Shown here piece after piece: positions 1,252-53,800 of a stretch of DNA of 64,000 nt. Both the position numbers and the translations under genes were made by a program. The stretch covers positions 6,762,191 to 6,826,190 of the forward strand of contig OZ024789.1 in assembly GCA_964017065.1 (NCBI GenBank), in the 5' to 3' direction. Position 1 is the first letter of the stretch; every line of letters begins with the position of its first letter. The notes below the pieces were generated by a model. That model was given only the letters and a program-made list of their open reading frames with translations, searched no databases and was not told where the DNA came from. This DNA comes from Haliclona indistincta (taxonomy: Eukaryota; Porifera; Demospongiae; Haplosclerida; Chalinidae).

Positions 1252-1965
1252 ATGGCGGCTGCTGGCTTTTGCAAGTTCCCTGGTTGTTCTCGTCCACAAT
1301 ATGTTGAACTTGGATTTATTCACGAATTTTGTGGCAAGAAACACGCTGAATCGTACCGACAAATTTATGAAAATAACGGTAAGAATTATAGTGACATTGG
1401 TCAACCTTGATGATTTCCATACACTGTAGGTACTTCTTCTACCACAACAACTTTCACCTCTAAAGCGTTCTCTAGTGAGCCATCAAGGAAAGGAAAACTT
1501 CAACCTGATGTGAAACGAGTGTTGCCCATACATTTCTATAATAGCAATGATCCGTACTACTACTTAACAAATTTTTACGCGACATCCATTGAATTAGATG
1601 GTTATGTGTGGCCAACGACTGAACACTACTTTCAGGCTCAGAAATTTTTTGGTACTCCTTACTATGACTACATTAGGTCATTACCAACACCACGAGAAGC
1701 ATTTCAAGTGTCTCGATTGCCCCAAGCTGCCGAACGGGTCAGAGGAGACTGGCCAAGAGTGAAGGAACGAATCATGTTGAAAGCGCTGAGAGCAAAGTTT
1801 ACACAAGATAAACACTTACGGCAGCTGTTGCTAGACACAAAGGATGTCGACCTAGTAGAGCACACAACGAATGACTCATACTGGGGTGATGGAGGAGATG
1901 GGAGTGGTCAGAACCAACTAGGAAAGCTCTTAATGCAAGTTAGGAAAGAACTTAAAGACGAATAA
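1252..1965 (+). CDS. NADAR (DUF1768/YbiA-like) domain protein, intact copy
   Basis: Two exons, 1252-1378 and 1430-1965, are joined by a 51-bp GT-AG intron and give about 220 residues. The N-terminus holds a small Cys/His module (CKFPGC, then FCGKKH at about residues 29-34). The rest is a NADAR domain, with SNDPYYYLTNFY, the TTEHYFQAQKF segment containing the conserved Glu, and the C-terminal SYWGDGGDGSGQN plus LGKLLMQVR. Family members act on N-glycosidic bonds: bacterial YbiA on riboflavin intermediates, others as ADP-ribose hydrolases. The substrate here is unknown. The ATG at 1252 is chosen because it opens the Cys/His module and the frame joins cleanly over the intron. This is the only complete copy in the array. 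Confidence 0.88.
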
Positions 1966-2496
1966 TAATTATTATTATTATTATTGTGAAACACACCACG
2001 TAAGGTGCAGAATTGAAATAAAATAAGTTTTGCCGTAGCAATTGTTCTTAACATTGTTTACCAGCCACACCTAGTTCAACTCTTAGTAACATGTCTAGTG
2101 TCAACTACAACATTATTTCCAATGTATAACGCTTACATTGATGTGTAAATTTCATTATAATAACGTTTCATACTAAACACAGAATGTTCTGATCTGTTAG
2201 CATCCTGTGTTCATCTGTTTTTAAAATTAGGCAATTTTTACATGCGCATAAAAATTTACTTTGTTGTATGCTAATGCTATGTGCATTGTTGCGTGAATAG
2301 CTATTCCAAGCAGCAATGTTGCAAGTAACAAACTTGAGTAGCTTACAAAAATTAGTAGTACGTTCTTAATAAGTAGCCAAGCATAATACTATTAGCTTTT
2401 TCTGAATAGGAAACCGTTACTGTAAAATCATAACTTGGTCACACTACATGTGTACTCCAATTTGAAGTAAGTGCTACGTTCATGTATAAGTTGTTA
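1966..2496. other. Spacer between convergent NADAR and transporter genes
   Basis: No gene is seen. A short ATT microsatellite directly follows the NADAR stop, at about 1965-1985. From about 2060 the sequence matches the equivalent spacers of units 2 and 3. Both flanking genes end here, so it probably contains their 3' UTRs. Confidence 0.5.
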
Positions 2497-10583
<8,087 letters not shown>

Positions 10584-11067
10584 GGTGCCAGCAGCGAGGC
10601 AACGCCAAGTTCAGCAAAATTTGTAAGCCAAGACCTTTTATAATAGATTCTCGATCTGTTCCGCCAGTGCTGCCTCGTACGAATAACCCGTGCATAACAG
10701 CTTTAAACTAGTATCGCGGACTAGAAATTACTTGCTAATCATAATGCACCGAATTCGCACGAGCCGAAACAACTTACGAAGGTGCGTCAGAGGAAGGCAA
10801 GTTATATAATGGCTGACGCAATAACCATCAACTAAAAACACATCCTCTATCAATGAATATAGTGAGCTAAAGTAGCTAGCTGTTATGTACGCCTGACTTG
10901 ATGTAAACACTGCATTTTATTTTCTCAAATTTTCACCCATGCATTTTGACCAAAGTTCTCGCTATAACAAGTACAGCATTCAAAAAAGGCAAGCTTAGAC
11001 ACCTGAGCTCAGAAAGTTATTAGTATGGATCTGTCTATCGTATATTCTAAGACAATGAAAATAATTA
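10584..11067. other. Spacer between the transporter 5' end and the F-box-like gene 3' end, unit 1
   Basis: No gene is recognised. It must contain the transporter promoter on the 10584 side and the 3' UTR of the F-box-like gene on the other. Matching spacers are at 27075-27623 and 42067-42558. Confidence 0.5.
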
Positions 11068-13089
11068 TTATTCATTATAATTGACAATGACTTCCTCTGC
11101 TATTGATAATAGTAGGATCATTATAGAATCACAGTCTTGTCTTGCTAGTTTAGATGGAGTATACACTATTTGTTTGATTTTTCGATCTTTGAATTCATCT
11201 CCAAGCGAAGAAGTAGACAAAAGCTGTCGATACACACTAGCGTTTACCGGTGCAAAATGGAGAGTGGTTCCACAACAGTGCGAGAGATCCCGCATGTTAG
11301 TAAAGAATGCTTGTCTCACTTGAGATTCTTCACTGGTAAGCAAAACTGGACTGAGCTGTATGATATCTGGACCTCGACCTTCTTGAATCAACTGATTAAG
11401 GCAGTGGTTTAGAGCTGGAATAACACCAGCATAATTGTCAACAAAGATTAATTGTTTGAGAGAAGTATTGGATAATATGTATCTTGCAAGCTGTACCGGT
11501 GACACAGTGGGCCCGTGGTATTCTCCCAAGAAAGAAACTCGCTCGATGTGCACAACAAAATCCAAAGGAATAAGATTAAGATGTCTGAGTGTCATCGTAA
11601 GCTCACTCAACCTTAGCTCTTGACAAAACCGAAAAAGTTGATTGTAGGCTTGACAAGTGGAGATGTTGCAATTGACAGAATAGCATGAAGGAGCCATGTT
11701 AAGAAGTTTGAATGAGTAATTTGAAAGCGGAGGCTGGATCTGTGATAACGGCTTACATTCAACTTTGGATACTATCGGAGCACCTTCAGGACGTGGTTCA
11801 AAAACTTCACATTTCTGCAACATTTTGTACTCTTCTAAGTCGATTGCAGCGATTTCCAGAGACTGCTTGTGGGTAGCAGGTGTTGCCAGAAATGTCTCAA
11901 CAAGATGAAAAGTCTCGGGCAATGGTGATCGAGTGACTCGGACTGAGCGGACTTGAGGTTGCTTAAGGAGATTAGACAGTGTCGAAAGAAGGCTCTTGTA
12001 TTCGGGAATAACAATCTTCTTGTCACAGAAGCCTAGCCCATCCACAGTCAGTTGAATAAGATTTTGAAGTTGAAAATCAACTATTGCTTTGATAGCAGTG
12101 GATATTCTAACACAGGCATTCTCTGAAACAATATGTTCTTTGATAAACGTCATACCGACCCAAGTATTCTTAATCGTAATCGAAAGTTCTTCTAAAAGAT
12201 AGGGCGGAGGAGAAACAGGAAGTTGATGGTTTGATGGGTCGAGTATCTTTTCACGGGACGTGTCGTAGAAAAACTCAGAAATTGAATCCAATATCCAAGC
12301 AATAGACTCAGGAGAACTAGTAATCTTGAGGTGCTTCAGCTGAGACTGCTTGCTGGTGACTATGTTGTGGAGAAGAGCATATGGAATCACTTCTCCATCA
12401 GTCCCTTTCACTGAGTCATCAGATTCAAGAACAAGTTTTTGGATAGGACTGAGTACTTTACCAAGAGCTGGATGGGACGCCTGAAGATCAGTGAAATGCT
12501 TGAACCAGAGTGGACTATTTGCTATACGTTGCAATACCACGGAGCACTCATCAACAGGAGATAGTTTAGAGCAGTATTCAAGCAATGGCTGCACCGATAC
12601 TGCTAAATCTTTCGTTCCTTTGACAAATCCCCATAAACAAGCAAACAACTGGAATCTTCTGGCAGGAATAAAGCTTCCCATTAAAAATGTTCCAAGTGTT
12701 GCATACTGCTTGCTAAAAAGATTGAATAACTCGGGGCATACAAGTACATTGTCTTCTGTATCATGGTCGACGTGTGTGCAGCAGAGTCGCAGAGAAAAGA
12801 ATTTGTCCATACGAACTATCGTCTTCAGATTACCAAGGCACCAACTGACGAGGAGTTTACTGGCAGCAGACAAGAGGAAGTCCGCTTCCACACCATTAAA
12901 GATGGCCGACTCTTGTAGATGGAGCACGTCAGCAAAGGAGAGAGAGTTGACTAGTTTGCAACGAATATCCCGAGGTAAGAGAGCTAGAGCTTGTATTGGG
13001 AACTCCTCTAAACGTGCCATGATCTGTAACATGCACATGTCCTGCAATGGTAGAGGTGACACACCAGAAAGATAGTAACGAGAAGGCAT
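11068..13089 (-). CDS. Intronless F-box-like protein of unknown function, unit 1 (673 aa)
   Basis: One uninterrupted exon begins MPSRYYLSG. Residues about 36-62 (LPRDIRCKLVNSLSFADVLH) fit an F-box-like helix pattern. The rest is a long alpha/beta region with LRR-like strand spacing (for example LKHLKIT, LEELSITI, IQLTVDGLGF) but no regular repeat I can count. If the F-box is real it would act as a substrate receptor for an SCF ubiquitin ligase; that is inference only. It has no signal peptide or membrane segment. The copy at 42559 is nearly identical and also intact, while the copy at 27624 is broken. Being intronless among intron-rich neighbours suggests origin by retroposition or an old intronless family. 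Confidence 0.75.
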   Translation of the reverse strand: MPSRYYLSGVSPLPLQDMCMLQIMARLEEFPIQALALLPRDIRCKLVNSLSFADVLHLQESAIFNGVEADFLLSAASKLLVSWCLGNLKTIVRMDKFFSLRLCCTHVDHDTEDNVLVCPELFNLFSKQYATLGTFLMGSFIPARRFQLFACLWGFVKGTKDLAVSVQPLLEYCSKLSPVDECSVVLQRIANSPLWFKHFTDLQASHPALGKVLSPIQKLVLESDDSVKGTDGEVIPYALLHNIVTSKQSQLKHLKITSSPESIAWILDSISEFFYDTSREKILDPSNHQLPVSPPPYLLEELSITIKNTWVGMTFIKEHIVSENACVRISTAIKAIVDFQLQNLIQLTVDGLGFCDKKIVIPEYKSLLSTLSNLLKQPQVRSVRVTRSPLPETFHLVETFLATPATHKQSLEIAAIDLEEYKMLQKCEVFEPRPEGAPIVSKVECKPLSQIQPPLSNYSFKLLNMAPSCYSVNCNISTCQAYNQLFRFCQELRLSELTMTLRHLNLIPLDFVVHIERVSFLGEYHGPTVSPVQLARYILSNTSLKQLIFVDNYAGVIPALNHCLNQLIQEGRGPDIIQLSPVLLTSEESQVRQAFFTNMRDLSHCCGTTLHFAPVNASVYRQLLSTSSLGDEFKDRKIKQIVYTPSKLARQDCDSIMILLLSIAEEVIVNYNE

Positions 13090-13106
13090 GGTTGTATGAC
13101 GTTGAC

Positions 13107-13186
13107 CAGGAGCGCATAATGAGAGTGCATGAGCGCGGTAAGAAGGCTCACTCTCTTACCGCGCTCACTCTCATTATGCGCTCCTG
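13107..13186. mobile_element. 80-bp hAT-like mini element upstream of the F-box-like gene, unit 1
   Basis: Ends are CAGGAGCGCATAATGAGAG and its inverted complement. CGTTGAC flanks it on both sides (13100-13106 and 13187-13193). Unit 3 has the empty site, a single CGTTGAC just upstream of its gene start, while unit 2 has a shortened copy at 29635-29699. CAG...CTG ends with a 7-8 bp duplication fit the hAT group. It lies 18 bp from the start codon, so it should be in the 5' leader or promoter. Confidence 0.7.
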
Positions 13187-15328
13187 CGTTGACGTAATTG
13201 AAATTGCACTTTTGCAGCTTGATCCATGCATCCACAACCATGACAAACTGCACGTAATAAAACCTTGAGTTTTACCAAAAATAATGTATTATCTACAAAA
13301 ATATGAACACGCCGGACAATATGCAACAATGAATGATGACAATAATATTGTTTGATGACTAGTCTTTGCAGTAGTGGACTAAAATGCCACTTTGGAACTC
13401 TTTCTCTGTCGCTGATGCTCCTTCTTCTCCTCGTATTCTTTCCTGGCAACACTATTGGCGTCTTTTAGAATAATGTTGACCTTACGAACAATCTCCTCTA
13501 AGAAAAAGACGTGAGCATTAAAATCACAAGTAGATTGAGGTTTAAATATCAGTTGTACGCCATCTGGTTGACATAGGTTCAACATGCTTTGGGCATAAAC
13601 CACTAGATTTACTACACCTGTGACAGACCCAGATATACTCACTAGCGGTCAAGGTGGTTGTTTCAAAGTCAATGGTCTTGTAGGCACTGTCCTTACTGAA
13701 CACACTCAATGCGTTACCTCGGTCCTCAAGTATTTCACATGCACAAATGGCATCAATGTCATATCTCATCTGAAGAGCAAACAGAAAATTGTAAGCTTTT
13801 TGTTGCAACACACATTAGTAGTTCAATAGTTAGCACCAATTCCACAATTTGGTATACATTACTAGAAGGTTTGATTTTAGAATGTAACTAGAAAAAATTC
13901 ATTCTAATACTGAAATTGGAGCATGCTACTACTTAAACCAAAATGAAGAGGCTGAACTTTTATGGACACAATGTGTGTGTGCTAACGGGTTTTGTCAAAG
14001 TCTTGAGGAATGACTTTGTCGGTTAATCAACTGGTTGTATCTCAATCCGCTCAGGGTCAACTCCTTTAGAATGAATAATGATATGTATGCTAACTGAGTT
14101 CCAGCCGTATGGCTATGCTGTTATCAACTTGATACGGATGAAGTTATCAATATTCAACTACATGTACATACCAAGGTGAACTTTGGTGTTGGCTCTGATC
14201 TTCTGTAGCATAGTCACTGTGTAAGACTAAGGCACAGTGAAAAAATCAAATAAAATCATGAAATGAACACTCCACATGCATATCTACTATATTATGGACC
14301 ACTTTTATTAAACATCATGGCTTACCTTGTACTGATGGCTGGTCAGTTCTGCTCGAACAGTAGTCTGTGTCTTTCTGCCTAATGAACTTTCTAACACTTC
14401 CTCTGCACCTAGAAATGATGATCGTCTTCCTGAAGAGAAAACAAGATGGCAAAGTGCCAAACAGTTCACTAGTTGGCAATGTTCTTAAAGCAGCAGTCAT
14501 AGCCAACTACCAAAATACCGTTTGTAAGGAAGTTTTGATAATTGAAATTACAGCACAAAAATTGAATTTAACCTTTAATTCACACTTACTGATGTTTCTG
14601 ACGAGCACAAAATCCATTGTGCCCTGACTTGATAGTGTACTACCAAGATCAACCAACTCATCAGGATAATCCTTCTTTTCAAGCTCATAATCTGTATGTA
14701 GACAGAAAATAGTAAACATATTGATAGGGATAGCTACAAATATTAAAATGATCCTTATAACTTGTAAATTGTATGTAGGTAAACACAGTGCAAATCCCCA
14801 TATTGACCGATAACCAAGGTGTTTAATTTATACTTGCCTGAAAGAGATACAACACTGTTGCTGTATCAGTGCAAAACTCGCTGATAGGGCACTATATTGC
14901 TGTCTAGTGCACGATGGCAGCCATTTTCTTACAATTGCCCATGCACTAGGTCAAGAGTTTATATCTGAGAGTATTGTACGCTCAATGTCACAATGTAAAT
15001 AGCATTCTCCACAAACTAGGTCATCAGTTGGGTGATGATCTCAATTGAGGCCCACCTGTGGGTAGCTGCATGATTACTGATAACAGTACGTCAATATGCC
15101 TACTTACACATGGTCCTCAAATGACTGATCTACTGTTTAGATTGCTCTATTCAGCGTTGAATGCTCAGTTATGAACTCTTGACTAGGATTACATGAAAAT
15201 TTGGACATCAAAAGGAACAAACAATTTGGACACAAACATACATGTACAGTTTAATAATCATACACCATCCATAAAAAATATTAAGACCACTCATTAATAA
15301 TTCATTGAGTCAGAAGCTGTGAAGTCAC

Positions 15329-15364
15329 GAATTAATGGCGGGTGTTCATGTCCGCCATTAATTC
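15329..15364. repeat. Hairpin GAATTAATGGCGG in a SIN1 intron
   Basis: Perfect 13-bp arms surround a short loop. It is conserved in unit 2 and degraded in unit 3. Confidence 0.6.
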
Positions 15365-15566
15365 GTTCATGTTAGATCCCTCATGAATAAACTCATTTTG
15401 CAAAAAAAGACCGTTTCTTTCACTGTGGAAGATCCAAGACGTGTCGAAGAGCTAAACCGCGTTACCTAACCATGCCACTATGTTCTTCGCAAACGGCAAA
15501 CGAGCTCCTAGTACACAAAAATGGCAGCAGTCATCGTCAGGTCAGTGTGAGCGTGGTCTAAGTCAG

Positions 15567-15735
15567 TTAGATCACCCAGACTCAGAATCTAACTGACATG
15601 AACGTCCCTTGGGCTATAGCGCTAATCACGACCCCTCGGATGGTCTTACACCCCTCTGGCTGTAAAACCATCCTCGGCTCATGACTGTCCCGCGGGATGT
15701 TCATGTCAATTAGATCCCTCCTTTGGGTGATCTAA
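15567..15735. mobile_element. Inverted-repeat element TTAGATCACCCA...TGGGTGATCTAA
   Basis: The terminal 12-bp arms are perfect, and inner inverted parts (GACATGAAC and GTTCATGTC) also match. It is shared with unit 2. In unit 3 the right half is replaced by other sequence. No clear target duplication was seen. Confidence 0.55.
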
Positions 15736-15951
15736 GTATTACATAGTGTATACTGACCATGAATTTGGAGTCTTCTTCTACGAATCACTCTTGTCAATAG
15801 TTCGCTCATTTCTACTTCAAGATTGTCCACAGCAAGTGTAGAAAAACCACCATTCTCATAGTAACTACAAACATACAAAATATTATATTCTATTTAGTTG
15901 AGCAATAGTCTCATACAACAATAAAGTACATGAACTATAGCTCTTACATGT

Positions 15952-17415
15952 TAATAGGGCAGATTTTCAAAAAGATGGGGACCAGCCGGATAAAAGCACC
16001 AAATTTTTTCTTGCATGTCCTTGGCTACTAAGCTTTGATTTTTTAATAGGACCCAACCGCGTAGTGCATTCTTACAACTTTTAAGGCAATTTTATATTTT
16101 AACGTTCATGAATAATTAATGAGCACATACATTTTGTACATAAAACTGGCTAAAACTTACTCTACTATGTATTTCTACTGGTATATTAAATAACGAATCA
16201 TCCCCAGCAATGATTTTGTTACAAAATGAAAAGAACATTTTTTACTAAGTTCAGTGCTTAATTTCTTGCAAGTACATCGATCTGCACCACAGCCTTTCTC
16301 ACTTTTACATCCACACTTAGCTAACTAGTTCAAGACATGCTTTGTTGGCTATTGGTTGTGTCATCCAAATAGGCATCTATTTCTGCTGCATGCTGTCAGT
16401 CTATGCAAGTCCCCAAGATTCTGGAGTAGGCCTCCACTGTTCACTTGTAGCCCAGATACTTCTCAAAACTGCTACTCATTATGAAAGGCTATAGGATAGT
16501 GCAAGAAAGCTAAGGCTGTAAGCCGGATAGTGCAAGAAAGGCTGTAAAATAGTGCAAGTAAGATAGTGCAAGAAAGGCTGTAAGATAGTGCAAGAAGGAT
16601 AGTGCAAGAAAGGCTGTAAGATAGTGCAAGAAAGATAGTGCAAGAAAGGCTGTAAGATAGTGCAAGTAAGATAGTGCAAGAAAGGCTGTAAGATAGTGCA
16701 AGTAAGATAGTGCAAGAAAGGCTGTAAGATAGTGCAAGAAAGGCTGTGTGCAAGAAAGGCTGTAAGATAGTGCAAGAAAGAGTGCAAGAAAGACTGTCAG
16801 GTAGTGCTAGAAATACTGCTTGGAATATGTCAGATAGTGCTAGAAGTACTGTAAGATAGTGCTTGAAATACTGTAAAATAGTGCTAGAAAGACTGTAAGA
16901 AATGCTGTGGAAACATCATGGGAAGCAATTGCAAGGCTGCCTTTGCAGCAAGAGTAGCAGTTTTGAGCTCATCGATGAAGCAAGAATGACAAGAAAGCAA
17001 AACTATGGAATACGTTCCACCAACAGTCAATACTCTATTGCAACATGCAAGGTGAGCTGCTTATCAGGTTAGTATCTGAGCTACAAGTGAACAGTTGTTA
17101 GTATAATGCAAACTAAAATGTTCTACCAACAAAATAATTGCTGGAGATGATTCATTATTTAATATACCAGTAGAAGTACATATTAGAGTAAGTTTTAGCC
17201 AGTTTAGAAATGGTTTATGTACAAAATGTATGTACTCATTAATTATTCATGAACGTTAAAATATAAAATTACCATAAAAGTTGTCAGAATGCACTACGCG
17301 GTTGGGTACTATTAAAAAATCAAAGCTTAGTACCCAAGGACATGCAGGAAAAAAATTGGTGCTTTTATCCAGTCTGTCCCTATTCCTCCAAAATAGTCCA
17401 AAAATCTGCCCTACT
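15952..17415. mobile_element. 1.46-kb foldback element, unit 1 only
   Basis: Long inverted arms of roughly 300 bp or more (AATAGGGCAGATTTT at the left, its complement-like partner at the right) share TCCTTGG, AAGCTTTGATTTTTTAATAG and AACGTTCATGAATAATTAAT. Between the arms lies a 22-bp-type minisatellite. ATGT is present at both edges (15948-15951 and 17416-17419). Units 2 and 3 keep the empty site (CTTACATGTGGATT). No transposase frame is seen, so it is non-autonomous. It is inside an intron of the broken SIN1 copy. Confidence 0.85.
16480..16900. repeat. Minisatellite in the centre of the foldback element
   Basis: Irregular tandem copies of a unit close to GATAGTGCAAGAAAGGCT, alternating with shorter forms. 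Three open frames on the minus strand over this stretch are by-products of the repeat. Confidence 0.85.
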
Positions 17416-17771
17416 ATGTGGATTGCTTACACTTTGACAATGAGGTGTCTTTTTGGTGAATCTTTTTGCACATCATGAGGCTCAGACTAGTATAAAAAAT
17501 AATAATCTCAACATAAAAAGAAAGAAAGACGTTTGAACCACATCCGCATGTCTGCAAACGTTTTTGAATCAAAACATGATTTTTAGATCTAGTCTGCTAT
17601 GACAAAGGTAAAGAAGGGCAACCATAACAAATTTCAGCATGTAAGGACCATATGATTGATTCCAGCTAGGAGGATAGTCTCATACTAGTGTAACCTAAGA
17701 GGTAGAAGCCATCTTGTCTAATGCAGCCACAAGCTAGTGTCCCATGATGTAACTTGTACATAATGCAGCCA

Positions 17772-17802
17772 CCTGCCTAATCAAGCCATTTGATTAGGCA
17801 GG
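17772..17802. repeat. Perfect 12-bp-stem hairpin beside a SIN1 exon
   Basis: CCTGCCTAATCA and its complement surround a 7-base loop, just inside the intron next to the donor of the exon that ends SLSV. It is kept in all three units (near 32840 and 48155). Confidence 0.65.
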
Positions 17803-18557
17803 TTTCACTGTACAGACAAACTGCAAGCTCCGTTTCCAAAAATTGCACGAATGATTTTTTGAAAAAATCTGTACTATTGCCACCTTTCTAAACATTCAAA
17901 TAAAATATTATATCGCGTATCACCTTGTTAACTTAATTTATCATTGATGCATACCTCCACAATACCAAGATTATTTGAAGCCAAACTTAGCAATATAGTC
18001 ATCACGTTGTAGCTCAGGTAGGTCTACATCAATCTCTCCATCGTCTTCAGCGACGTCTTCAGCGATCATCACTGAATAATTACTGACCTTTTTCTGTGAT
18101 CAAATAACAAACATGTGAAATATCAAATACAGTAAGCACAATACTATTTACTACTCAGTTGCCCGCCATAATGCTTAAATTATCACATGTAACTTACCAG
18201 GGGAATCGGTTCTCTCTCTTCTAGATACTTCCAGAATGTTAGACCTATCAGATCTTCAACAGTAGCTGTATCTAGTGAAGAGAACACAAACAGTGGTTCA
18301 CAGCACAAGAGAGAACAACATACGTAGCACAGTCACTTTGACAGGTACAGTCGGCTCCTGAAAAAGAATACATACTAGCATGCATGTAGTAAACACTACG
18401 CTACTTGTAGCTTACCTTTGCCATTGCTAGAAAGATGTAGTATTTGTTAGTTGAAGCAGCACCGTGATTCTGAAAAACAACAAGTATTGTTATAATGTTT
18501 TTAAACACACCTGTTCTAATAACTAACTAATGCACATGTATGAGCTAGATATTAACA

Positions 18558-18560
18558 CTG
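18558..18560. other. Duplication junction between units 1 and 2
   Basis: To the left, sequence matches the SIN1 intron at 51600-51683. To the right, it matches NADAR exon 2 from 1505. The bases CTG are common to both parents, so the breakpoint has 3 bp of microhomology. Confidence 0.9.
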
Positions 18561-19056
18561 ATGTGAAATGAGTGTTCTCAAAAGGGCCCATAAATTTCTA
18601 TAGTCGCAGTGATCCTTACTACTACTTCACAAATTTCTACCCAGCATGTATTGAATTAGATGGTTATGTGTGGCCAACGACTACTTTCAGGCTCAGAAAT
18701 TTTTTGGTACTCCTTACTATGACTACATTAGGTCATTACCAACACCACGAGAAGAATTTCAAGTGTCTCGATTGCCCCAAGCTTCCGAATCGGTCAGAGG
18801 AGATTGGCCGAGTGTTAAAGATCAAATCATGTTGAAAGCGCTGAGAGCAAAGTTTACACAGGATAAACACTTAAGGCAGCTGTTACTAGACACTAAGGAT
18901 AGGAAGCTAGTAGAGCACACAACCAACGACTCATACTGGGGTGATGGAGGTGATGGGAGTGGTCAGAACCATCTAGGAAAGCTCTTAATGCAAGTTAGGA
19001 GTGAATTGAAAGACGCACCATTGAAGGACCTGTATATTCATAAAAAACCTGTATAA
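18561..19056 (+). pseudogene. NADAR gene remnant, unit 2
   Basis: Exon 1 and the start of exon 2 are missing because of the junction. The codon CGA at the place of 1519 has become TGA. A 7-bp deletion removes part of the TTEHYF segment, including its Glu and His, and shifts frame. The downstream part still reads NADAR-like to SGQNHLGKLLMQVR. It cannot make a working NADAR protein. Confidence 0.88.
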
Positions 19057-19137
19057 CATCGTAAATCTTCTGAAGGAGGCATCAGTACACGATGTACTAG
19101 ACCATCCAACTCAACCCCATATGCTCCACTGCATGTA

Positions 19138-19377
19138 CCCAGGTAGAAATAACATAATATGTTACATAATTATGTAGAACTATGTTTTTTCTGGTCATTT
19201 GGCACTGTTCTCTAAAGCCTCTAATACATTTTGTATTCTATGTCAAAGCTGTGTACATATGTGTTGTATATGTAACATATATGTTGCATATAGGATTTAT
19301 ATGTAATTTCTGGTCATTTGGCACTCCATATATGTAACATATTATGTGCAACATATATTATGTTATTTTTACCTGGG
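19138..19377. mobile_element. 240-bp TA-flanked MITE, unit 2
   Basis: Ends are CCCAGGTAGAAATAACATAA and the inverted complement-like TTATGTTATTTTTACCTGGG, with TA on each side, as for Tc1/mariner-type elements. An equivalent copy is at 33972-34214 in unit 3. Unit 1 has nothing similar after its NADAR gene. Confidence 0.75.
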
Positions 19378-19843
19378 TAGGTGTTCAAAGACATTTACCA
19401 GCCACACCTAATTCAACTTCCTCCTCTCAGCTCTCTTCTAAGCCAACTCATACTAACAAGTCTGGTGTCAGCTATAACAGTGTAAATTTCATTATAATAA
19501 CGTTTCATGTTAAACATAGAATGTCTCCGCCCTCTGTTAGTATCCTGTGTTCATCTGTTTTTAAAAATGATGATACATATTAGGCATTTTTACATGCAAC
19601 AAAATTGCCTAGTGTGCCATACAAATTTATGCTATGTACATTATTGCGTGAATAGCTATTCCAAGCAGCAATGTTGCAAGTAACAAACTTGAGTAGCATA
19701 CAATAATTAGTAGTACATTCTTAATAAGTAGCCTTGCATAATACTATTAGCTTTTTTTGAATAGGAAAATAAAATCATAACTTGATTACACTACATGTGT
19801 ACTCCAATTTGAAGTAGGTGCTACATTCATGTATAAGTTGTTA

Positions 19844-27074
<7,231 letters not shown>

Positions 27075-33614: not shown

Positions 33615-33912
33615 ATGTGAAATGAGTGTTCTCAAAAGGGCCCATAAATTTCTATAGTCGCAGTGATCCTTACTACTACTTCACAAATTTCTACCCAGCA
33701 TGTATTGAATTAGATGGTTATGTGTGGCCAACGACTACTTTCAGGCTCAGAAATTTTTTGGTACTCCTTACTATGACTACATTAGGTCATTACCAACACC
33801 ACGAGAAGCATTTCAAGTGTCTCGATTGCTCCAAGCTTCCGTATCGGTCAGAGGAGATTGGCCAAGTGTTAAAGATCAAATCATGTTGAAAGCGCTGAGA
33901 GCAAAGTTTACG
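33615..33912 (+). pseudogene. NADAR gene remnant, unit 3
   Basis: It has the same early TGA and 7-bp deletion as unit 2. A further deletion of about 220 bp, compared with unit 2, takes away the C-terminal half including the WGDGGDGSGQN motif. Confidence 0.88.
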
Positions 33913-33971
33913 GCATCAGTACACGATGTACTAGACCATCCAACTCAACCCCATATGCTCCACTGCATGTA

Positions 33972-34214
33972 CCCAGGTAGAAATAACATAATATGTTACA
34001 TATGTATTATGTAGAACTATGTTTTTTCTGGTCATTTGGCACTGTTCTCTAAAGCCTCTAATACATTTTGTATTCTATGTCAAAGCTGTGTACATATGTG
34101 TTGTATATGTAACATATATGTTGCATATAGGATTTATATGTAATTTCTGGTCATTTGGCACTCCATATATGTAACATATTATGTGCAACATATATTATGT
34201 TATTTTTACCTGGG
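33972..34214. mobile_element. TA-flanked MITE, unit 3
   Basis: Near-identical to 19138-19377 and at the same site after the NADAR remnant, so it was inherited with the unit rather than inserted twice. Confidence 0.75.
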
Positions 34215-34680
34215 TAGGTGTTCAAAGACATTTACCAGCCACACCTAATTCAACTTCCTCCTCTCAGCTCTCTTCTAAGCCAACTCATACTAACAAGTCT
34301 GGTGTCAGCTATAACAGTGTAAATTTCATTATAATAACGTTTCATGTTAAACATAGAATGTCTCCGCCCTCTGTTAGTATCCTGTGTTCATCTGTTTTTA
34401 AAAATGATGATACATATTAGGCATTTTTACATGCAACAAAATTGCCTAGTGTGCCATACAAATTTATGCTATGTACATTATTGCGTGAATAGCTATTCCA
34501 AGCAGCAATGTTGCAAGTAACAAACTTGAGTAGCATACAATAATTAGTAGTACATTCTTAATAAGTAGCCTTGCATAATACTATTAGCTTTTTCTGAATA
34601 GGAAAATAAAATCATAACTTGATTACACTACATGTGTACTCCAATTTGAAGTAGGTGCTACATTCATGTATAAGTTGTTA

Positions 34681-42066
<7,386 letters not shown>

Positions 42067-42558
42067 GATGCCAGGAGGCAGCAGCAAGGCAACGCCAAGT
42101 TCAGCAAAATTTTTTGATTTGTAAGCCAAGACAGAACTTTTATAATAGATTCTCTGTTTCGCCAGTGCTGCCTCGTACGAATAACCTGCATAACAGCTTT
42201 AAACTAGTAACGCGGTCTAGAAATTACTTGCTAATGCACAGTGCACGAGCCGAAACACCTTACGAAGGTGCGTGGAGCGTGCAATCGTGTAAGCTGACGT
42301 AATAACCATCAACTAAAAACACATCCTCTATCAATAAATATAGTGAGCTGAATTAGCTAGCTGTTATGTACTGTTATGTACGGTTGTGTACGACTGACTT
42401 GGTGTAAAAACTGTGTTATTTTCTCAAATTTATGTATTTTGACCAAAGTTCTCGCTATTACAGCATTCAAAAAAGGCAAGCTTAGACACTTGAGCTCAGA
42501 AAGTTATTAGTATGGATCTGTCTATCATATAATTATTCTAAGACAATGAAAATAATTA
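42067..42558. other. Spacer between transporter and F-box-like gene, unit 3
   Basis: No gene is seen. It matches the unit 1 spacer with scattered small gaps and should hold the transporter promoter. Confidence 0.45.
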
Positions 42559-44577
42559 TTATTCATTATAATTGACAATGACTTCCTCTGCTATTGATAA
42601 TAGTAGGATCATTATAGAATCACAGTCTTGTCTTGCTAGTTTAGATGGAGTATACACTATTTGTTTGATTTTTCGATCTTTGAATTCATCTCCAAGCGAA
42701 GAAGTAGACAAAAGCTGTCGATACACACTTGCGTTTACCGGTGAAAAATGGAGAGTGGTTCCACAACAGTGCGAGAGATCCCGCATGCTAGTAAAGAATG
42801 CTTGTCTCACTTGAGATTCTTCACTGGTAAGCAAAACTGGACTGAGCTGTATGATATCTGGACCTCGACCTTCTTGAATCAACTGATTAAGGCAGTGGTT
42901 TAGAGCTGGAATAACACCAGCATAATTGTCAACAAAGATTAATTGTTTGAGAGAAGTATTGGATAATATGTATCTTGCAAGCTGTACCGGTGACACAGTG
43001 GGCCCGTGGTATTCTCCCAAGAAAGAAACTCGCTCGATGTGCACAACAAAATCCAAAGGAATAAGATTAAGATGTCTGAGTGTCATCGTAAGCTCACTCA
43101 GCCTTAGCTCTTGACAAAACCGAAAAAGTTGACAGTAGGCTTGACAAGTGGAGATGTTGCAATTTACAGAATAACATGAAGGAGCCATGTTAAGAAGTTT
43201 GAATGAGTAATTTGAAAGCGGAGGCTGGATCTGCGATAACTGTTCGCATTCAACTTTGGATACTATGGGAGCACCTTCAGGACGTGGTTCAAAAACTTCA
43301 CATTTCTGCAACATTTTGTACTCTTCTAAGTCGATTGCAGCGATTTCCAGAGACTGCTTGTGGGTAGCAGGTGTTGCCAGAAATGTCTCAACGAGATGAA
43401 AAGTCTCGGGCAATGGTGATCGAGTGACTCTGACTGAGCGGACTTGAGGTTGCTTAAGGAGATTAGACAGTGTTGAAAGAAGGCTCTTGTATTCGGGAAT
43501 AACAATCTTCTTGTCACAGAAGCCTAGCCCATCCACAGTCACTTGAATAAGATTTTGAAGTTGAAAATCAACTATTGCTTTGATAGCAGTGGATATTCTA
43601 ACACAGGCATTCTCTGAAACAATATGTTCTTTGATAAATGTCATACCGACCCAAGTATTCTTAATCGTAATCGAAAGTTCTTCTAAAAGATAGGGCGGAG
43701 GAGAAACAGGAAGTTGATGGTTTGATGGGTCGAGTATCTTTTCACGGGACGTGTCGTAGAAAAACTCAGAAATTGAATCCAATATCCAAGCAATAGACTC
43801 AGGAGAACTAGTAATCTTGAGGTGCTTCAGCTGAGACTGCTTGCTGGTGACTATGTTGTAGAGAAGAGCATATGGAATCACTTCTCCATCAGTCCCTTTC
43901 ACTGAGTCATCAGTTTCAAGAACAAGTTTTTGGATAGGACTGAGTACTGTACCAAGAGCTGGATGGGACGCTTGACGATCAGTGAAATGCTTGAACCAGA
44001 GTGGACTATTTGCTATACGTTGCAATACCACGGAGTACTCATCGACTGGAGATAGTTTAGAGCAGTATTCAAGCAATGGCTGCACACATACCGCTAAATC
44101 TTTCGTTCCTTTGACAAATCCCCATAAACAAGCAAACAACTGGAATCTTCTGGCAGGAATAAAGCTTCCCATTAAAAATGTTCCGAGTGTTGCATACTGC
44201 TTGCTAAAAAGATTGAATAACTCGGGGCATACAACATTGTCTTCTGTATCATGTTCTTGTGTGCAGCAAAGTCGCAGAGAAAAGAATCTGTCCATACGAA
44301 CTATCGCCTTCAAGTTACCAAGGCACCAACTGACGAGGAGTTTACTGGCAGCAGACAAGAGAAAGCGGCCCGCTTCCACACCATTAAAGATGGCCGACTC
44401 TTGCAGATGGAGCACGTCAGCAAAGGAGAGAGAGTTGACTAGTTTGCAACGAATATCCCGAGGTAAGAGAGCTAGAGCTTGTATTGGGAACTCCTCTAAG
44501 CGTGCCATGATCTGTAGCATGCACATGTCCTGCAATGGTAGAGGTAACACACCAGAAAGATAATAACGAGAAGGCAT
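42559..44577 (-). CDS. Intronless F-box-like protein of unknown function, unit 3 (672 aa)
   Basis: One open exon is near-identical to the unit 1 copy, with scattered substitutions such as EQLSQ for KPLSQ and SCTQE replacing a longer HVDHD stretch. The N-terminal F-box-like helix (LPRDIRCKLVNSLSF) is unchanged. Indels relative to unit 1 are in multiples of three, which supports selection to keep the frame. It lacks the 80-bp element found upstream of the unit 1 and 2 copies, so its 5' leader differs. It ends about 270 bp from the 3' end of the complete SIN1 gene upstream on the same strand. Function is unknown. Confidence 0.75.
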   Translation of the reverse strand: MPSRYYLSGVLPLPLQDMCMLQIMARLEEFPIQALALLPRDIRCKLVNSLSFADVLHLQESAIFNGVEAGRFLLSAASKLLVSWCLGNLKAIVRMDRFFSLRLCCTQEHDTEDNVVCPELFNLFSKQYATLGTFLMGSFIPARRFQLFACLWGFVKGTKDLAVCVQPLLEYCSKLSPVDEYSVVLQRIANSPLWFKHFTDRQASHPALGTVLSPIQKLVLETDDSVKGTDGEVIPYALLYNIVTSKQSQLKHLKITSSPESIAWILDSISEFFYDTSREKILDPSNHQLPVSPPPYLLEELSITIKNTWVGMTFIKEHIVSENACVRISTAIKAIVDFQLQNLIQVTVDGLGFCDKKIVIPEYKSLLSTLSNLLKQPQVRSVRVTRSPLPETFHLVETFLATPATHKQSLEIAAIDLEEYKMLQKCEVFEPRPEGAPIVSKVECEQLSQIQPPLSNYSFKLLNMAPSCYSVNCNISTCQAYCQLFRFCQELRLSELTMTLRHLNLIPLDFVVHIERVSFLGEYHGPTVSPVQLARYILSNTSLKQLIFVDNYAGVIPALNHCLNQLIQEGRGPDIIQLSPVLLTSEESQVRQAFFTSMRDLSHCCGTTLHFSPVNASVYRQLLSTSSLGDEFKDRKIKQIVYTPSKLARQDCDSIMILLLSIAEEVIVNYNE

Positions 44578-44845
44578 GGTTGAATGACGTTGACGTCATT
44601 GAAATTTGCACTTTTTCAGCTTGATCCACAGCATGGGATGGGCATTGACAGTAGCAGGCCAACTGCATGTAGCTAGTATGACTGCTTCTCTTTCAGTCTC
44701 TCATTCATTACTGTCTCTCAAAATTATCTTATTGTTCTTGAGTTTTACCAAAAATAATGTATTATCTACAAAAATATGAACACGCCGGACAATATGCAAC
44801 AATGAATGATAATATTGTTTGATGACTAGTCTTTGCAGTAGTGGA

Positions 44846-47800
44846 CTAAAATGCCACTTTGGAACTCTTTCTCTGTCGCTGATGCTCCTTCTTCTCCTCG
44901 TATTCTTTCCTGGCAACACTATTGGCGTCTTTTAGAATAATGTTGACCTTACGAACAATCTCCTCTAAGAAAAGACATGAACTTTAAAATCACAAGACTA
45001 GTGTAGATTGAGGTTTAAATATCAGTTGTACGCCATCTGGTTGACATAGGTTCAACATGCTTTGGGCATAAACCACTAGATTTACTACATCTGTGACAGA
45101 CCCAGAAATACTCACTAGCGGTCAAGGTGGTTGTTTCAAAGTCAATGGTCTTGTAGGCACTGTCCTTACTGAGTCTGGTCAGTCTGAACACACTCAATGC
45201 ATTACCTCGGTCCTCAAGTATTTCACATGCACAAATGGCATCAATATCATATCTCATCTGAAGAGCAAACAGAAAATTACAAGCTTTTTGTTGCAACACA
45301 CATTAGAGTAGTTCAATAGTTAGCACCAATTCCACAATTTGGTATACTAACACCCTTTACTAGAGGGTTTGAATTTAGTATGCAACTAGAAAAAATTCAT
45401 TCTTGAAAAAGTACTAATACTGAAATTGGAGCATGCTACTACTTAAATCAAAATGAAGAGGCTGAACTTTTATGGACACAATGTGTGCGTGCTAACGGGT
45501 TTTGTCAAAGTCTTGAGGAATGACTTTGTCGGTTGATCAACTGGTTGTATCTCAATCCGCTCAGGGTCAACTCCTGTAGAATGAAAAATAATATGTATAC
45601 TAACTATTCCAAGAGTTCCAACTATTCTATGAGTTCCAGCTGTTGTCAACTTGATACGGATGAAGTTATTAGTATTCAACTACATGTACATACCAAGGTG
45701 AACTTTGGTGTTGGCTCTGATCTTCTGTAGCATAGTCACTGTGTAAGACTAAGGCACAGTGAAAAAATCAAATAAAATCATGAAATGAACACTCCACATG
45801 CATATCTACTATATTATGGACCACTTTTATTAAACATCATGGCTTACCTTGTACTGATGGCTGGTCAGTTCTGCTCGAACAGTAGTCTGTGTCTTTCTGC
45901 CTAATGAACTTTCTAACACTTCCTCTGCACCTAGAAATGATGATCGTCTTCCTGAAGAGAAAACAAGATGGCAAAGTGCCAAACAGTTCACTAGTTGGCA
46001 TAGTATACAATGTTCTTAAAGCAGCAGTCATAGCCAACTACCAAAATACTGTTTGTAAGGAAGTTTTGATAATTGAAATTACAGCACAAAAATTAAATTC
46101 ACACTTACTGATGTTTCTGACGAGCACAAAATCCATTGTGCCCTGACTTGATAGTGTACTACCAAGATCAACCAACTCATCAGGATAATCCTTCTTTTCA
46201 AGCTCATAATCTGTATGTAGACAGAAAATAGTAAACATATTGATAGGGATAGCTGCAAATATTAATGATCCTTATAACTTGTACATTGTATGTAGGTAAA
46301 CACAGTGCAAATCCCCATATTGACCGATAACCAAGGTACTTGCCTGAAAGTGATACAACACTGCTGCTGTATCAATGCAAAACTCGCTGATAGGGCACTA
46401 TATTGCTGTCTAGTGCACGATGGCAGCCATTTTTTACGATTGGCCATGCACTAGGTCAAGAGTTTATAACTGAGAGTATTGTACGCTCAATGTCACAATG
46501 TAAATAACAAACTAGGTCATCAGTTGGGTGATGCATGATCCAACCTGTGGGTAGCTGATTACTGATAACAGTACTGCTGAATAGCAATCAGCTACTTATA
46601 CATTGACCTCAAATGACTAATCCGCTATTTACATTGCTCTATTGAGCGTTTAATGCTCAGTTATGAACTCTTGACTAGGAGTACTGGACATCAAAAGGAA
46701 CAAACAATTTGGTCACAAACATACAATTTAATAATCATACACCATCCATATTTAGACCACTCGTTAATAATTTGTAAGCTGTGAAGTCACGAATTAATGG
46801 CAGGCGTTCATGTCAGTTAAATCCCTCATGAATAAATTCATTTTGTAAAAAATGACCGTTTCTTTCACTGTGGAAGATTCAAGACGTGTCGAAGAGCTAA
46901 CCGCGTTACCTGGAGTGAAGAAATCATGCCACTATGTTCTTCGTGAAAGGCAAACGAGCTCCTAGCACACAAAAATGGCAGCAGTCATCGTCAGGTCAGT
47001 GTGAGCGTGGTCTAAGTCAGATCACCCAGAGTGAGACTCAGAATCTAACTGACATGAACGTCCCTTGGGCCAATCACAACCCCTCGGATGGTCTTACAGC
47101 CCTCAGGCGGTATAATTAACCAGCCTCGGGTATATCCCATACCACCTCGGAACCCATGGGTTAACCCATACGTACTACATAGTGTATACTGACCATGAAT
47201 TTGGAGTCTTCTTCTACGAATCACTCTTGTCAATAGTTCGCTCATCTCTACTTCAAGATTGTCCACAGCAAGTGTAGAAAAACCACCATTCTCATAGTAA
47301 CTACAAACATACAAAATATTACATTCTATTTAGTTGAGCAATAGTCTCATACAACAATAAAGTACATGAACTATAGCTCTTACATGTGGATTGCTTACAC
47401 TTTGACAATGAGGTGTCTTTTTGGTGAATCTTTTTGGACATCATGAGGCTCAGACTAGTATAAAAAATAATAATTTCAACATACAAAGAAGCACACGTTT
47501 GAACCACATCTGTATGTCGGCAAACTTTTAAAATAAAAAACATGAATTTGGATCTAGTCCGATTCATTTGCTATGACAAAGGCAAAGAAGGGCAACCATA
47601 ACGAAATTTCAGCATGTAAGGGCCATATGATTGATTCCAGCTAAGAGGATAGTCTCATACTAGTGTAACCTGAGAGGTAGAAGCCACCTTGTCTAATGCA
47701 GCCACAAGCTAGTGTTGCTATGACAAAGGCAAAGTAGGGCAACCATAACAAAATTTCAGCCATATGATTGATTCCAGCTAGGAGGATAGTCTCCAGGGCT

Positions 47801-50800
47801 TCAAATTAGCACTAGCCTGCTAGCCCGAGACTAGTAAAATTTAGCTTGGGCTAGTAAAATTTATAGGTTGGTAGCCCAGCTGGCTAGAGAAACTAGTAAG
47901 CTTACTGCAGAATTTGAGTAGAAGCAAGTTCATAAAAGCATAAAATTAGCTTAATTATTCCATCGGGCTAGTAGGAACTGGTTTGGGCTAGTTACAATTT
48001 AAGTTTGCTAGTCCTGCTGGTTAAATTGAAAAGAAGTTAATTTGAAGCCCTGATAGTCTCATACTAGTGTAAACTGAGAGGTAGAAGCCACCTTGTCTAA
48101 TGCAGCCACAAGCTAGTGTCCAAATTATAGTGACTTTTACTTGTACATAATGCAGCCACCTGCCTAATCAAGCCATTTGATTAGGCAGGTTTCACTGTAC
48201 AGACAAACTGCAAGCTCTGTTTCCAAAAATTGCACGAATGATTTTTTGGAAAAATCTGTACTATTGGTCACATTGCCGCCTTTCTAAACATTCAAATAAA
48301 ATATATCGTGTATCACCTTGTTAACCTAATTTATCATTGATGCATACCTCCACAATACCAAGATATTTGAAGCCAAACTTAGCAATATAGTCATCACGTT
48401 GTAGCTCAGGTAGGTCTACATCAATCTCTCCATCGTCTTCAGCGATCATCACTGAATAATTACTGACCTTTTTCTGTGATCAAAATAACAAACATGTGAA
48501 ATAGCACATAGATGTCCGGTATCACCATTCTCTGTCTATTGATACATTAATAATCCTTTCTTGTACCATGGTACCACATTGACAGTACTGGGAACTACCA
48601 TATTCACAGTAACTAAGCTAACCCTACTTGCCAGTACCATTGTACCATCATGTACTATCCAGTACCATTGTACCGTGCTACAGTACCAGAATGTACCATA
48701 CTTACTATTCATAGTACAGCACCATTCATGTACATTGTACCATGGTACGGCATGGACAGTACTGGGATGTATCACTATGTACCATAACACTGCTATCTTA
48801 AGTGTCCATCCCTACTATTGTACCATATATTGAGATATTGAGGGTGGGATAATATCCACCAAGATATTGCAACTGAGGTAAGTAGTACGAAACCTGGCTC
48901 TCCACTTGTTATCTTTGTCCTCTGTAGGAAAAGCTAATTCAACTATGAGATGTACCACAGTTGTTGTGGTACATCTCATGTGTCTCTAGTGTGTCCTACT
49001 GGAATGTACCACAGTACATCCCAGTAGGACAATTGCTGATGGCTAGGAAGCCTAGAAAATGCATTCATAATGCATTCTACAGTGCTACAACTGATTCCCA
49101 GGTAGAAATTGATCCCCACTGTGTTCCCAAGCAAGGACAAGTCACTTATTCTCGCCATTATCCTCATTGTCGTTGTTGGTTGGTGACGGAAGGATGCCGA
49201 GTCTCACTAAGACAAGCGCCAGCAGTGTAGTTGTACCAATGAAAGCAGTAATTTGGAAATCTACTGTGGTATTTGTTCCCGCTGACTCTAGTGGTTTTTC
49301 GTTTTTACTATGGTATGGACACTATGCACATTTTTCAAAAGTACACTAGGCTTCATTGTATTATCAGCATCAAGACTCTATGGTGTAATAGTTTCTAATG
49401 ATGTACAATGTACTTAAATTGTAAATTAATTTCAAAATTTTAAATTACGACAATTGTACGACAATTTTTTAGAAACTATTACACCATAGAGTCCTGATGC
49501 TGATAATAGAATGAAGCCTAGTGTACTTTTGAAAAATGTGCATAGTGTCCATACCATTGTAAAAACAAAAAAACACTAGAGTAAGCGGGAACAAGTGGTC
49601 CTCTGCTCCTAAGACCCAACAAGCAACTGCCCCCAAAATTTAATAATAATAAGTTTTAACAAGTGTAGGAGATGATGATTGCAAAAGTAAAAGTGCCAAG
49701 TATCCCTATACATCTCGAGTCGTGTACACCAACATCTAGGCTGGTAGATATCTGGACAATTGCTGGTAGCAAGAGTATATAATCTAACAAGAGTATCGAA
49801 CGCCAATTGCCACTGTAGAAACACTCTCGGGAAAGTAACGTGACCAGCACGTGAGATATTTTACGCATTGTGACCAAAGCGTGTTACACAAATCCACGAC
49901 TATGTCACAATGAAGGCGTGTCCTGCAGGAAGCAAGCGCCCATGATGGAAAATACAGCTACTCAGGGCTCTTTATTGACAAGATACCTCTAAAAAGCAGG
50001 CGTTCGTTAGTCGCCAAACATCGACAATGTGATTTTTGTAGACGAACGCGCTCTGACAAACCGAGCTCGCTGCTGTTCTTATTCTTCAATTAAAGAGCAT
50101 AACTAGCATGTGTTTCTGTTTTCTCAGCATTTGTCGTGTCTACATCGCTATATTCTCGCCTGCAACAGTCCAATTATCATCTAAAAAGCTTGGCTAGCAT
50201 CGTTGCTGAACGTCGATGATGTCAATGGCTAGCCTGCGGTGTGGGCGTATACGTCATCAGATCACGTTTCTGTCACGTTACTTTCCCGAGAGTGTTTCTA
50301 CAGTGGCAATTGGCGTTCGATACTCTTGTTAGATTATATACTCTTGCTGGTAGATATTTGATATTTTTCAGTGGAAATTTTGATAAAATTAATTATGGCA
50401 CAACAGCTATAATTTCTCCTATCAGCGAACAGTGCATATCACTGGCAATGACGATCCAAATTTCGTGCAACTAATTATACAAAAGTTATGATAGCAAACG
50501 TTTGTGACTCCTCATAACACACTATAGTTGTGTACACATGCATGCATGTGATGCTCACTCACTACTAGTGATAGTGGAAGGGCGTAGTGGACTGAGTTTT
50601 TTCAGTGATTGTTGGATTGGTGACCTCACTACAAACCAGTGGAAGAAGGTATAGTGTTTGTATCTTAGACACATTCAAGATTGGTTTGATATTGTATACA
50701 TTCTTCAGCTATCCCTCCCTGACTCGTCTGTGACTGAACGATACTATCACTCACTTACCCTACCATGGTACATTGGTACGGGATGGACACTTGGGATAGC

Positions 50801-53800
50801 AGTGTTATAATGTGGTACATAGTGGTACATCCCAGTACTGTCCATACCCTACCATAGTACAAAATGGTACGGGATGGACACTTGGGATAGCAGTGTTATA
50901 ATGTGGTACATAGTGGTACATCCCAGTACTGTCCATACCCTACCATAGTACAAAATGGTACGGGATGGACACTTGGGATAGCAGTGTTATAATGTGGTAC
51001 ATAGTGGTACATCCCAGTACTGTCCATACCCTACCATAGTACAAAATGGTACGGGATGGACACTTGGGATAGCAGTGTTATAATGTGGTACATAGTGGTA
51101 CATCCCAGTACTGTCCATACCCTACCATAGCACAAAATGGTACGGGATGGACACTTGGGATAGCAGTGTTATAATGTAGTACATAGTGGTACATTATTAT
51201 GGTACAGGATAGATACTTGCAACGGGATTGTAGTGATGGAGTGTGGTGCTTGCAATTGATAGTGAGCACAATACTGTTTACTACAGTATATGTGCCATAA
51301 TGCTTAAATTATTGCATGTAACTTGCCAGGGGAATCGGTTCTCTCTCTTCTAGATACTTCCAGAATGTTAGACCTATCAGATCTTCAACAGTTGCTGTAT
51401 CTAGTGAAGAGAACACAAACAGTGGTTCACAGCACAAGAGAGAACAACATACGTAGCACAGTCACTTTGACAGGTACAGTCGGCTCCTGAAAAAGAATAC
51501 GTATTAGCACGCATGTAGTAAACACTACACTACTTGTAGCTTACCTTTGCCATTGCTAGAAAGATGTAGTATTTGTTAGTTGAAGCAGCACCGTGATTCT
51601 GAAAAACAACAAGTATTGTTATAATGTTTTTAAACACGTGTTCTAATAACTAATGCACATGTATGAGCTAGATATTGACACTGCTCTAGAAGACAAGCAG
51701 AACAGCTAATTCACAATGTACAATACTGCTCGGCAGTATATTTAGTGGAGGCTTCTACACAGCAGAATGTACTTGAAAGTAACATTACAGCCTACATAAA
51801 TTTAAGGTTTGGGCTGCTTCATGACTAAGCAAGATTTTTGTTGTGAGCTCTGTGCACTACAGTGCTCAGGATGGCTTGCTATACATGAGAGACTAGTCCT
51901 GGAGTACTGCTACATAATTTCGGATTGTTTGTGTAAGAATGTTGAAGGCATAGACAACCTGCTAATTGGTGCGAAACTATAGAGTTTCCAATTCTGTTTG
52001 TGTTACAATGCGGTGAATTCTGGACAGAATTGCTATCTGCTGCTGTACAAATCCAAAACGGCAGTACAATTATTTTGTGTTTCATTGATAGTGTTACACA
52101 TGCAGCTAGCAAGTATCAGCAAGTAACAACATATTTTTTATTCAAAACAAGACAATGCATAATACTATACTATACCATACTATACTATACTAGGCTACTA
52201 TACTATACTAGGCTACTATACTATACTAGGCTACTATACTATACTAGGCTACTATACACTATTAGTACAAGTCAAGCAGTTCAAACAGATTCAGCGGCTG
52301 GTAGCGGATGAACTTGTGTGTTAAAACACTTGCAGTAATCTTGGGTCAAACTTTTAAGAGCACCACGAACTGGCTTGAGAAAAACAATGATTATAATAGG
52401 TGTTGCGATAGCGGGAATGTTGTACACCACACGTATGGCGTAGTTCACAGCCACAAACTTCACCACGCTATTGGAGAGCTGCTTTATTATTGACGGATTG
52501 GCAATTGGAATAACATTCACGATGAATGTTATTATCGAACTAATGACAAAATATACCATGACCTTAGTAATGACTTTCTTCAAGCTAATATTTCCATCCA
52601 GTACATTTTTCTTCATGTATACCAATGTAAATATAATGCAAACGACTTGGATGGCTATAAAGAACAAAGATAGACCAACAAGAGAAAAAGCAAGTCCTTT
52701 GAATAAAGAAGAATCCGGGTTAGTTTTACAGAATCCTTTGATGTTGGATGTTTGGACGTCCTCAAGAAATGGTATTATTCCCATTGCAATAGAAATAATC
52801 CACGATATGACTACGAATGAGAAAATTATGTACCACTTCATTGTTTTCTTTCCCCATATGATGAAGACGCTGACAATTATTGCATATAAGGTATCTGACG
52901 TGATCTTCTGTCCTGCAGCAACGTAAAATAGACCAACAAAGATTTTGCAAGATACATCTTCTTCATAAAGCAGACGCACTGGTACCCCAAGATAGAAGAA
53001 ACTGAAGGCAGAACATCTCAGGAGCTCACCAGCAAACAAATTGATAAGAGAAAAACGAATTTTAGCATTAATTTCTTTAGTAGAGATCAATCCAACTATG
53101 CACAATAAAGACAGGACAAGCGGAGGAATGATTACAAGCGTGAACAGAGCCAAGCTTATCATCAAATTATAGTTGAAATACAAGCTGGCATCTATATCAC
53201 TGCTATTGAATGCCATAGTTTCAAACTACCAAACGATAGATTGCACTGTTTACTGCTGCTATATAACAACACTCAGTAAAATTATCACATTTCTTGGGCC
53301 TTTGGTGCAATTAACAAGACTTTATTTGTTAACATCAAGCCTGACGTAATTTTGCGTAACATTTTAAGGTCAAAGATCAAAGCCACCCCATGCTTTAACC
53401 TTTGCAAGTGTAGACAAGAATGTTTTGACCAAGATATGTACCTGATAAGTGTAGAACTTTCTCCGTAATCACTAGTTAGTCACCCCACTTGACAATCTAG
53501 AATCTACCAACCTCATCAGTACTGTTTCAAAAAACTTTTCGATTGACCTTTAGTAGGTCAAACAGCAATTGCGCTATTCATGTCAAGAGGGCCTGGGAGA
53601 CCAAGTAGTACATTGTTTGTGTACATGTTATCACTCATAAGTGCTGTACAATACCAGTGATACAATAATGTTTGTGATTGATAAAGCAACAGACTGCAGT
53701 AACAAGGTACAATTGCTAACCAGCAGAATCATGTGACAGTACTAGACACAATAATTCACAACCTCCATTACTGACACGTACGTGAACTTGAAAGCAAATA

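Follow-up and report, generated by a model that had tools for sequence, protein, structure and literature searches.

A block of animal-like genes of ~15-18 kb lies in three tandem copies within the window, by which we mean the whole stretch of 64,000 nucleotides that was analysed (C7:6762191-6826190; the genome comprises 144.0 Mb in 46 contigs). The three tandem units of the first-pass annotation are borne out at the positions given below. Two truncated units directly adjoin the long ones upstream (C7:6755029-6762526, window -7161 to +336), which brings the array to five members or more. The truncated units consist of NADAR and the tail of the transporter-like gene and have a period of ~3.9 kb. 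To the right of the array, an ORF at 57008-57715 encodes a Rabenosyn Rab-binding domain (Pfam E 1.2e-9). In window positions, the array is laid out as follows.

About -7161 to -3561: truncated upstream unit um2
About -3896 to +336: truncated upstream unit um1; its right end lies at 1..336, the remainder left of the window
~1505-18560: unit 1, with NADAR (plus strand; open) and, on the minus strand, a transporter-like gene, an F-box-like gene (open, 695 aa stop to stop) and a partial SIN1 gene with a broken CRIM exon
6177-7085: first private insertion of unit 1 (909 bp)
15948-17411: second private insertion of unit 1 (1468 bp), with inverted ends 15978-16220 and 17128-17380
18524-18754: unit 1/unit 2 junction; it is identical to the unit 2/unit 3 junction over 37 bases on the left and 194 on the right side of the joint
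~18561-33614: unit 2, the mosaic, with a 7-bp deletion in NADAR, an F-box-like ORF interrupted by private indels of 4, 2 and 31 bp, and a partial SIN1 gene with the CRIM exon broken as in unit 1; its private losses include 31 bp and 108 bp
33578-33808: unit 2/unit 3 junction, identical to the first junction over 231 bases
~33615-51683: unit 3, with 7-bp and 220-bp deletions in NADAR, an open F-box-like ORF (678 aa stop to stop) and an open CRIM exon
48510-51261: private stretch of unit 3 (~2.7 kb; 2749 bp) inside the SIN1 region, containing an inverted repeat (49273-49594) and a ~90-bp tandem repeat (50756-51194)

The NADAR ORF of unit 1 matches its Pfam family with an E-value of 3e-37. CRIM matches above the cut-off were obtained in units 2 and 3 only (two matches, five candidates scored); unit 1 has the same CRIM exon sequence, though without a match above the cut-off. 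No Pfam domain (E 0.001) was found in six of the eight ORFs tested, the "F-box-like" ORF being among the six. The families SIN1 (PF05422) and SIN1_PH (PF16979) gave no hit anywhere, nor in any of the 14 control genomes, so that these searches carry no weight. The labels F-box and MITE are those of the first-pass annotation and the label transporter-like (ABC type) is a reading by eye, all of them without a family match in this analysis. Between units 1 and 3, the F-box-like ORFs have a dN/dS of 0.23 over 671 codons. The unit 2 copies of NADAR, of the F-box-like gene and of the CRIM exon all carry frame-changing indels, and because these three gene copies are broken, unit 2 looks like a decayed passenger that would be free to be overwritten. 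The 220 bp lost from the NADAR gene of unit 3 at 33911 are kept in unit 2, and as both units are otherwise near-identical there, this loss looks recent.

Exchange or recent copying between units is also indicated at the upstream edge of the array. Over unit-1 1781-2243, unit 1 and um1 are near-identical (1 of 250 five-way columns differs) and each of them differs from unit 2 at 55-56 of the 250 columns, which is a further sign of such events.

Pair sharing along the middle unit

The first-pass annotation described the middle unit as a left/right mosaic of its neighbours, and unit 2 is indeed like unit 3 on the left and like unit 1 on the right, far above chance. The alignment of the three units used 12,249 of 13,753 ungapped columns, those at most five columns from a gap being dropped. 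Across its whole length, units 1 and 2 agree against unit 3 at 217 sites, units 2 and 3 against unit 1 at 247, and units 1 and 3 against unit 2 at 82. The best single switch gives a two-segment gain of 145.4 log units, which none of 2000 shuffles reaches (largest 11.1). Comparing pair sharing along the aligned units, as had been proposed, reveals a clear switch and strongly non-uniform similarity, but not the location near 27-29 kb that was expected for it. Instead of a single switch at 27.1-29.3 kb, sharing between units 2 and 3 stops well to the left and steady sharing between units 1 and 2 begins only later:

22,172-22,426: main switch interval, from the last 2/3-shared site (22172) to the first 1/2-shared site (22426)
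29,163-29,225: second switch, at which steady 1/2 sharing begins; found in the three-segment fit, not in the four-segment fit

When the switch is forced to 27.1, 28.2 or 29.2 kb, 194, 191 or 195 recent-pair differences result, as compared with 170 at the best position. The BIC decreases from 1115.8 with one segment to 844.1 with two, 808.6 with three and 803.1 with four, and rises beyond four. The four-segment fit keeps the switch at 22.2-22.4 kb, with its remaining switches at 31.26 and 32.16 kb and none at 29.2 kb. A description in three zones is hence a choice and not the BIC optimum, the four-segment fit being slightly better; it was chosen because the sites past 29,225 are steadily of the 1/2 type and the divergence of units 1 and 2 falls there. 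A small conversion patch had also been suggested at 28.2-28.3 kb. A closed 1/2-type patch (28,170-28,543) appears in the eight-segment fit only, and a break at 28,164-28,170 is present in six- to eight-segment fits, none of which is favoured by the BIC. The three zones of unit 2 are the following.

18561-22289: zone L; 8/2963 sites differ from unit 3 (33615-37126)
22290-29223: zone M; near-star, with all pairs at ~2.2-2.8%
29224-33614: zone R; 31/3423 sites differ from unit 1 and 135/3423 from unit 3

In zone L (2963 columns), the divergence is 5.64% between units 1 and 2, 0.27% between units 2 and 3, and 5.50% between units 1 and 3. The corresponding values are 2.23%, 2.66% and 2.81% in zone M (5863 columns), and 0.91%, 3.94% and 3.97% in zone R (3423 columns). 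Substitutions shared by pairs 1-2, 2-3 and 1-3 are distributed 2:161:6 in zone L, 95:70:61 in zone M and 120:16:15 in zone R. The 198 indel events show the same zoning (3:23:2, 32:29:28 and 52:17:12, respectively). The recent pair is less diverged in zone L than in zone R (0.27% vs 0.91%; Fisher 0.001), and zone M exceeds both (p<=1e-6). Zone R is uneven within itself, as units 1 and 2 differ there at 14/1691, 0/631 and 17/1101 sites; the stretch with 0/631 differences lies at unit-2 31265-32172, where unit 3 differs by 9.5%. Of this stretch, a segment of ~460 bp (unit-1 15284-15747) has dozens of relatives genome-wide, mostly 66-76% identical among the best 40 of 75 candidates.

Indel markers and outgroup polarity

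Several indels had been put forward as derived states that mark the two sides of the mosaic, and most of them were confirmed. On the left, the 7-bp NADAR deletion of units 2 and 3 is found neither in unit 1, um1 and um2 nor in two aligned NADAR copies elsewhere. The left insertion named a MITE is present in units 2 and 3 and missing from unit 1 and um1, and um2 has an empty site as read by eye. On the right, the element before the F-box-like gene occurs in unit 1 (87 bp, 13,100-13,186) and unit 2 (72 bp, from 29,628) and not in unit 3. The 12-bp CRIM duplication is likewise confined to units 1 and 2, in both of which the exon frame is changed, the exon being open in unit 3.

Two left-hand markers fared less well. 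Near 23570, the insertion of 80-odd bp does not qualify as a clean shared-derived state of units 2 and 3, because three C1 outgroup copies carry ~45 bp there and unit 1 is deleted at this place. The idea that the 77-bp block near 23570 is wholly ancestral was rejected too, as the C1 copies hold only ~45 bp. A transporter linker frameshift said to be common to units 2 and 3 was not located under that name; the transporter-like gene does contain two derived indels of units 2 and 3, with 8 bp lost at unit-2 19,768 and 5 bp gained at 21,115, and these two positions fall left of 22.29 kb. Two clean derived indels of units 1 and 2, at unit-2 26,731 and 26,763, lie left of the 27.1-29.3 kb within which the switch had been proposed.

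Outgroups for the transporter part are three copies on C1 and one at C7:5.72-5.73 Mb. They span unit-1 ~2.26-6.16 and 8.05-10.63 kb; of the intervening gap (6.16-8.05 kb), only the ends are covered. The DNA outgroup search with the F-box-like block matched this block in the three units only (best 40 of 55 candidates), the other 40 of 43 matches being pieces of 33 to 51 bases at the query end. For unit-1 13.90-15.95 kb, no outgroup beyond repeat-like pieces was found among the best 40 of 75 candidates. As no outgroup was found in these parts, the counts for zone R and for much of zone M are unpolarised.

Sites were polarised only where the outgroups present agree. Shared-derived states of pairs 2-3, 1-2 and 1-3 then number 17:0:1 in zone L (23/78 two-state sites ambiguous), 4:0:0 in segment L2 (8/25 ambiguous), 0:3:0 in M1 (16/44 ambiguous) and 7:6:5 in M2 (24551-27100; 45/130 ambiguous, 1 other). 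Constrained trees agree with this pattern. Zone L rejects both alternatives to the grouping (2,3) with p-AU <=1.1e-4, and L2 does likewise (<=0.008). M1 prefers (1,2), the other groupings having a p-AU of 0.03 but a p-SH of 0.07, and M2 chooses no topology. Adjacent segments hence differ in topology, with (2,3) in L and L2 and (1,2) in M1, the latter by p-AU and more weakly by p-SH. In the free M1 tree, the C7 copy joins units 1 and 2 and leaves unit 3 outside (support 89), and because of this grouping it may not be a plain outgroup in M1.

Within zone M, a 1/2-type patch at 26538-26961 holds three shared-derived substitutions and the two clean shared-derived indels, but its run pattern is not significant. 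Neither is the clustering of the conflicting sites in M2 (p 0.23, or 0.09 with the two indels added). By a hand estimate, homoplasy would be too rare to account for the 18 shared-derived sites of M2; a polymorphic ancestral array could yield part of the conflict even without conversion.

Junctions and the history of the array

Both junctions have an A where the own end of unit 3 has a G, and the parent ends overlap by CTG at the joint, as read by eye. As the junctions are identical, one join followed by homologous copying explains them better than two separate joins. The third unit probably came from an unequal exchange, the crossover position of which is no longer readable. The likeness of the junctions could also be due to conversion across the joint.

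That the middle unit arose by unequal crossing over between two older units, as proposed in the first-pass annotation, is thus right in part. A crossover between units A and B predicts the order A, B-left/A-right, B, and the observed direction of the mosaic agrees with it, as do the identical junctions; the single switch and the single age that also belong to this proposal fail. If one crossover were the whole history, unit 2 should be equally recent with one of its neighbours everywhere, scaled by the local rate, and units 1 and 3 should show the old A-B divergence all along. Constraint and mutation rate vary along the units, and the 1-3 divergence was used as the control, which overlaps in some sites with the other counts. 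Constraint does act, as the dN/dS of the F-box-like gene shows, and is taken into account by this yardstick. Divided by the 1-3 differences, the recent-pair differences give 8/163 (0.05) in zone L, 131/165 (0.79) in zone M, or 156/165 if pair 2-3 is used instead of 1-2, and 31/136 (0.23) in zone R. These ratios differ strongly (chi-square 94, p ~3e-21; L vs R p 6e-5). The initial 0.8 kb of unit 1 is badly aligned and um1-like and contributes part of the 163 differences of zone L. That zone L is special merely through this stretch was ruled out by trimming, since trimmed zone L (unit-1 2311-4949) has a ratio of 6/91 (vs R p 0.005, vs M p 2e-13). Counted per 500 sites, recent-pair differences still vary between 0 and 22 when the switch is set at its best single position (index of dispersion 5.5, p ~2e-16). 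One switch combined with one age for unit 2 does not describe these data, and because the dispersion and the zone ratios contradict it, more than one exchange is needed.

The middle unit is a real mosaic, and we think it probable that no fewer than two exchanges lie behind it, which amounts to ordinary concerted evolution. Overall, the array would be a tandem segmental duplication under repeated non-allelic homologous exchange. As the joint sequence suggests, end joining with a 3-bp overlap may first have linked the SIN1 region to the start of NADAR, giving two units. A homologous unequal exchange would then have copied the joint and produced the third unit, as the identical junctions suggest. 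Beyond this, two or more later exchanges, by gene conversion or paired crossovers, are required to account for the current zone edges. The resemblance of units 1 and 2 on the right (~0.9%) would go back to one or more older exchanges and that of units 2 and 3 on the left (~0.3%) to a recent one, with an older patchwork remaining between. Judged from sequence, each of these may have been a gene conversion or a crossover pair.

Both similarity zones could alternatively have been made at once by a single exchange tract of ~8-9.5 kb, offset by one unit and spanning the junction, which would have transferred the right part of unit 1 with the left part of unit 2 to, or from, the right part of unit 2 with the left part of unit 3, all three units existing already. 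In both copies, the zones of low divergence run through the junction without a break (~12.7-22.3 kb and 29.2-37.1 kb) and the joint is identical over 231 bases, as such a tract would leave them, and the apparent unequal-crossover hybrid would then be the footprint of one long conversion. We consider this unlikely, as zone R (0.91%) looks older than zone L (0.27%), zone R is uneven within, and differences increase near the junction (5 in unit-1 18365-18560 and 4 in unit-2 18561-18810). One unequal crossover with a single switch is quite unlikely as the full history. It has the mosaic direction, the identical junctions and the strength of the single switch in its favour, but leaves the dispersion along the unit and the different ages of zones L and R unaccounted for, and it is contradicted by zone M, where unit 2 has no close kinship to either neighbour, unless zone M was overwritten later. 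An assembly artefact with haplotypes stacked in tandem is very improbable: the array is known from the assembly alone and some pair divergences could be allelic, but every unit shows insertions or losses of its own, the F-box-like block occurs at these three places only (best 40 of 55 candidates), and under stacking of haplotypes the divergence should be even over a full period.

The exchange history that we favour is of a known kind, and the biology of the array is otherwise ordinary. It is well resolved here, with outgroup copies of one part present in the same genome. A middle tandem copy can mimic a one-step crossover hybrid while holding exchanges of several ages, and this cautions against inferring the history of an array from a handful of indel markers. 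Tandem duplicates can evolve in concert through non-allelic gene conversion and unequal crossing over. The present array resembles such cases in the patchy similarity of neighbours, the sharp switches in high-identity stretches and the apparent conflict among shared-derived sites, and it does not differ from them in kind, only in the clear zoning of its middle unit. A single unequal crossover between the members of a two-unit array can create a hybrid middle unit, as in opsin or globin arrays. Unit 2 is like such a hybrid in that its left part comes from the downstream unit and its right part from the upstream unit, with identical junctions, but unlike it in that its kinship with the neighbours is of more than one age and its centre is star-like over ~7 kb.
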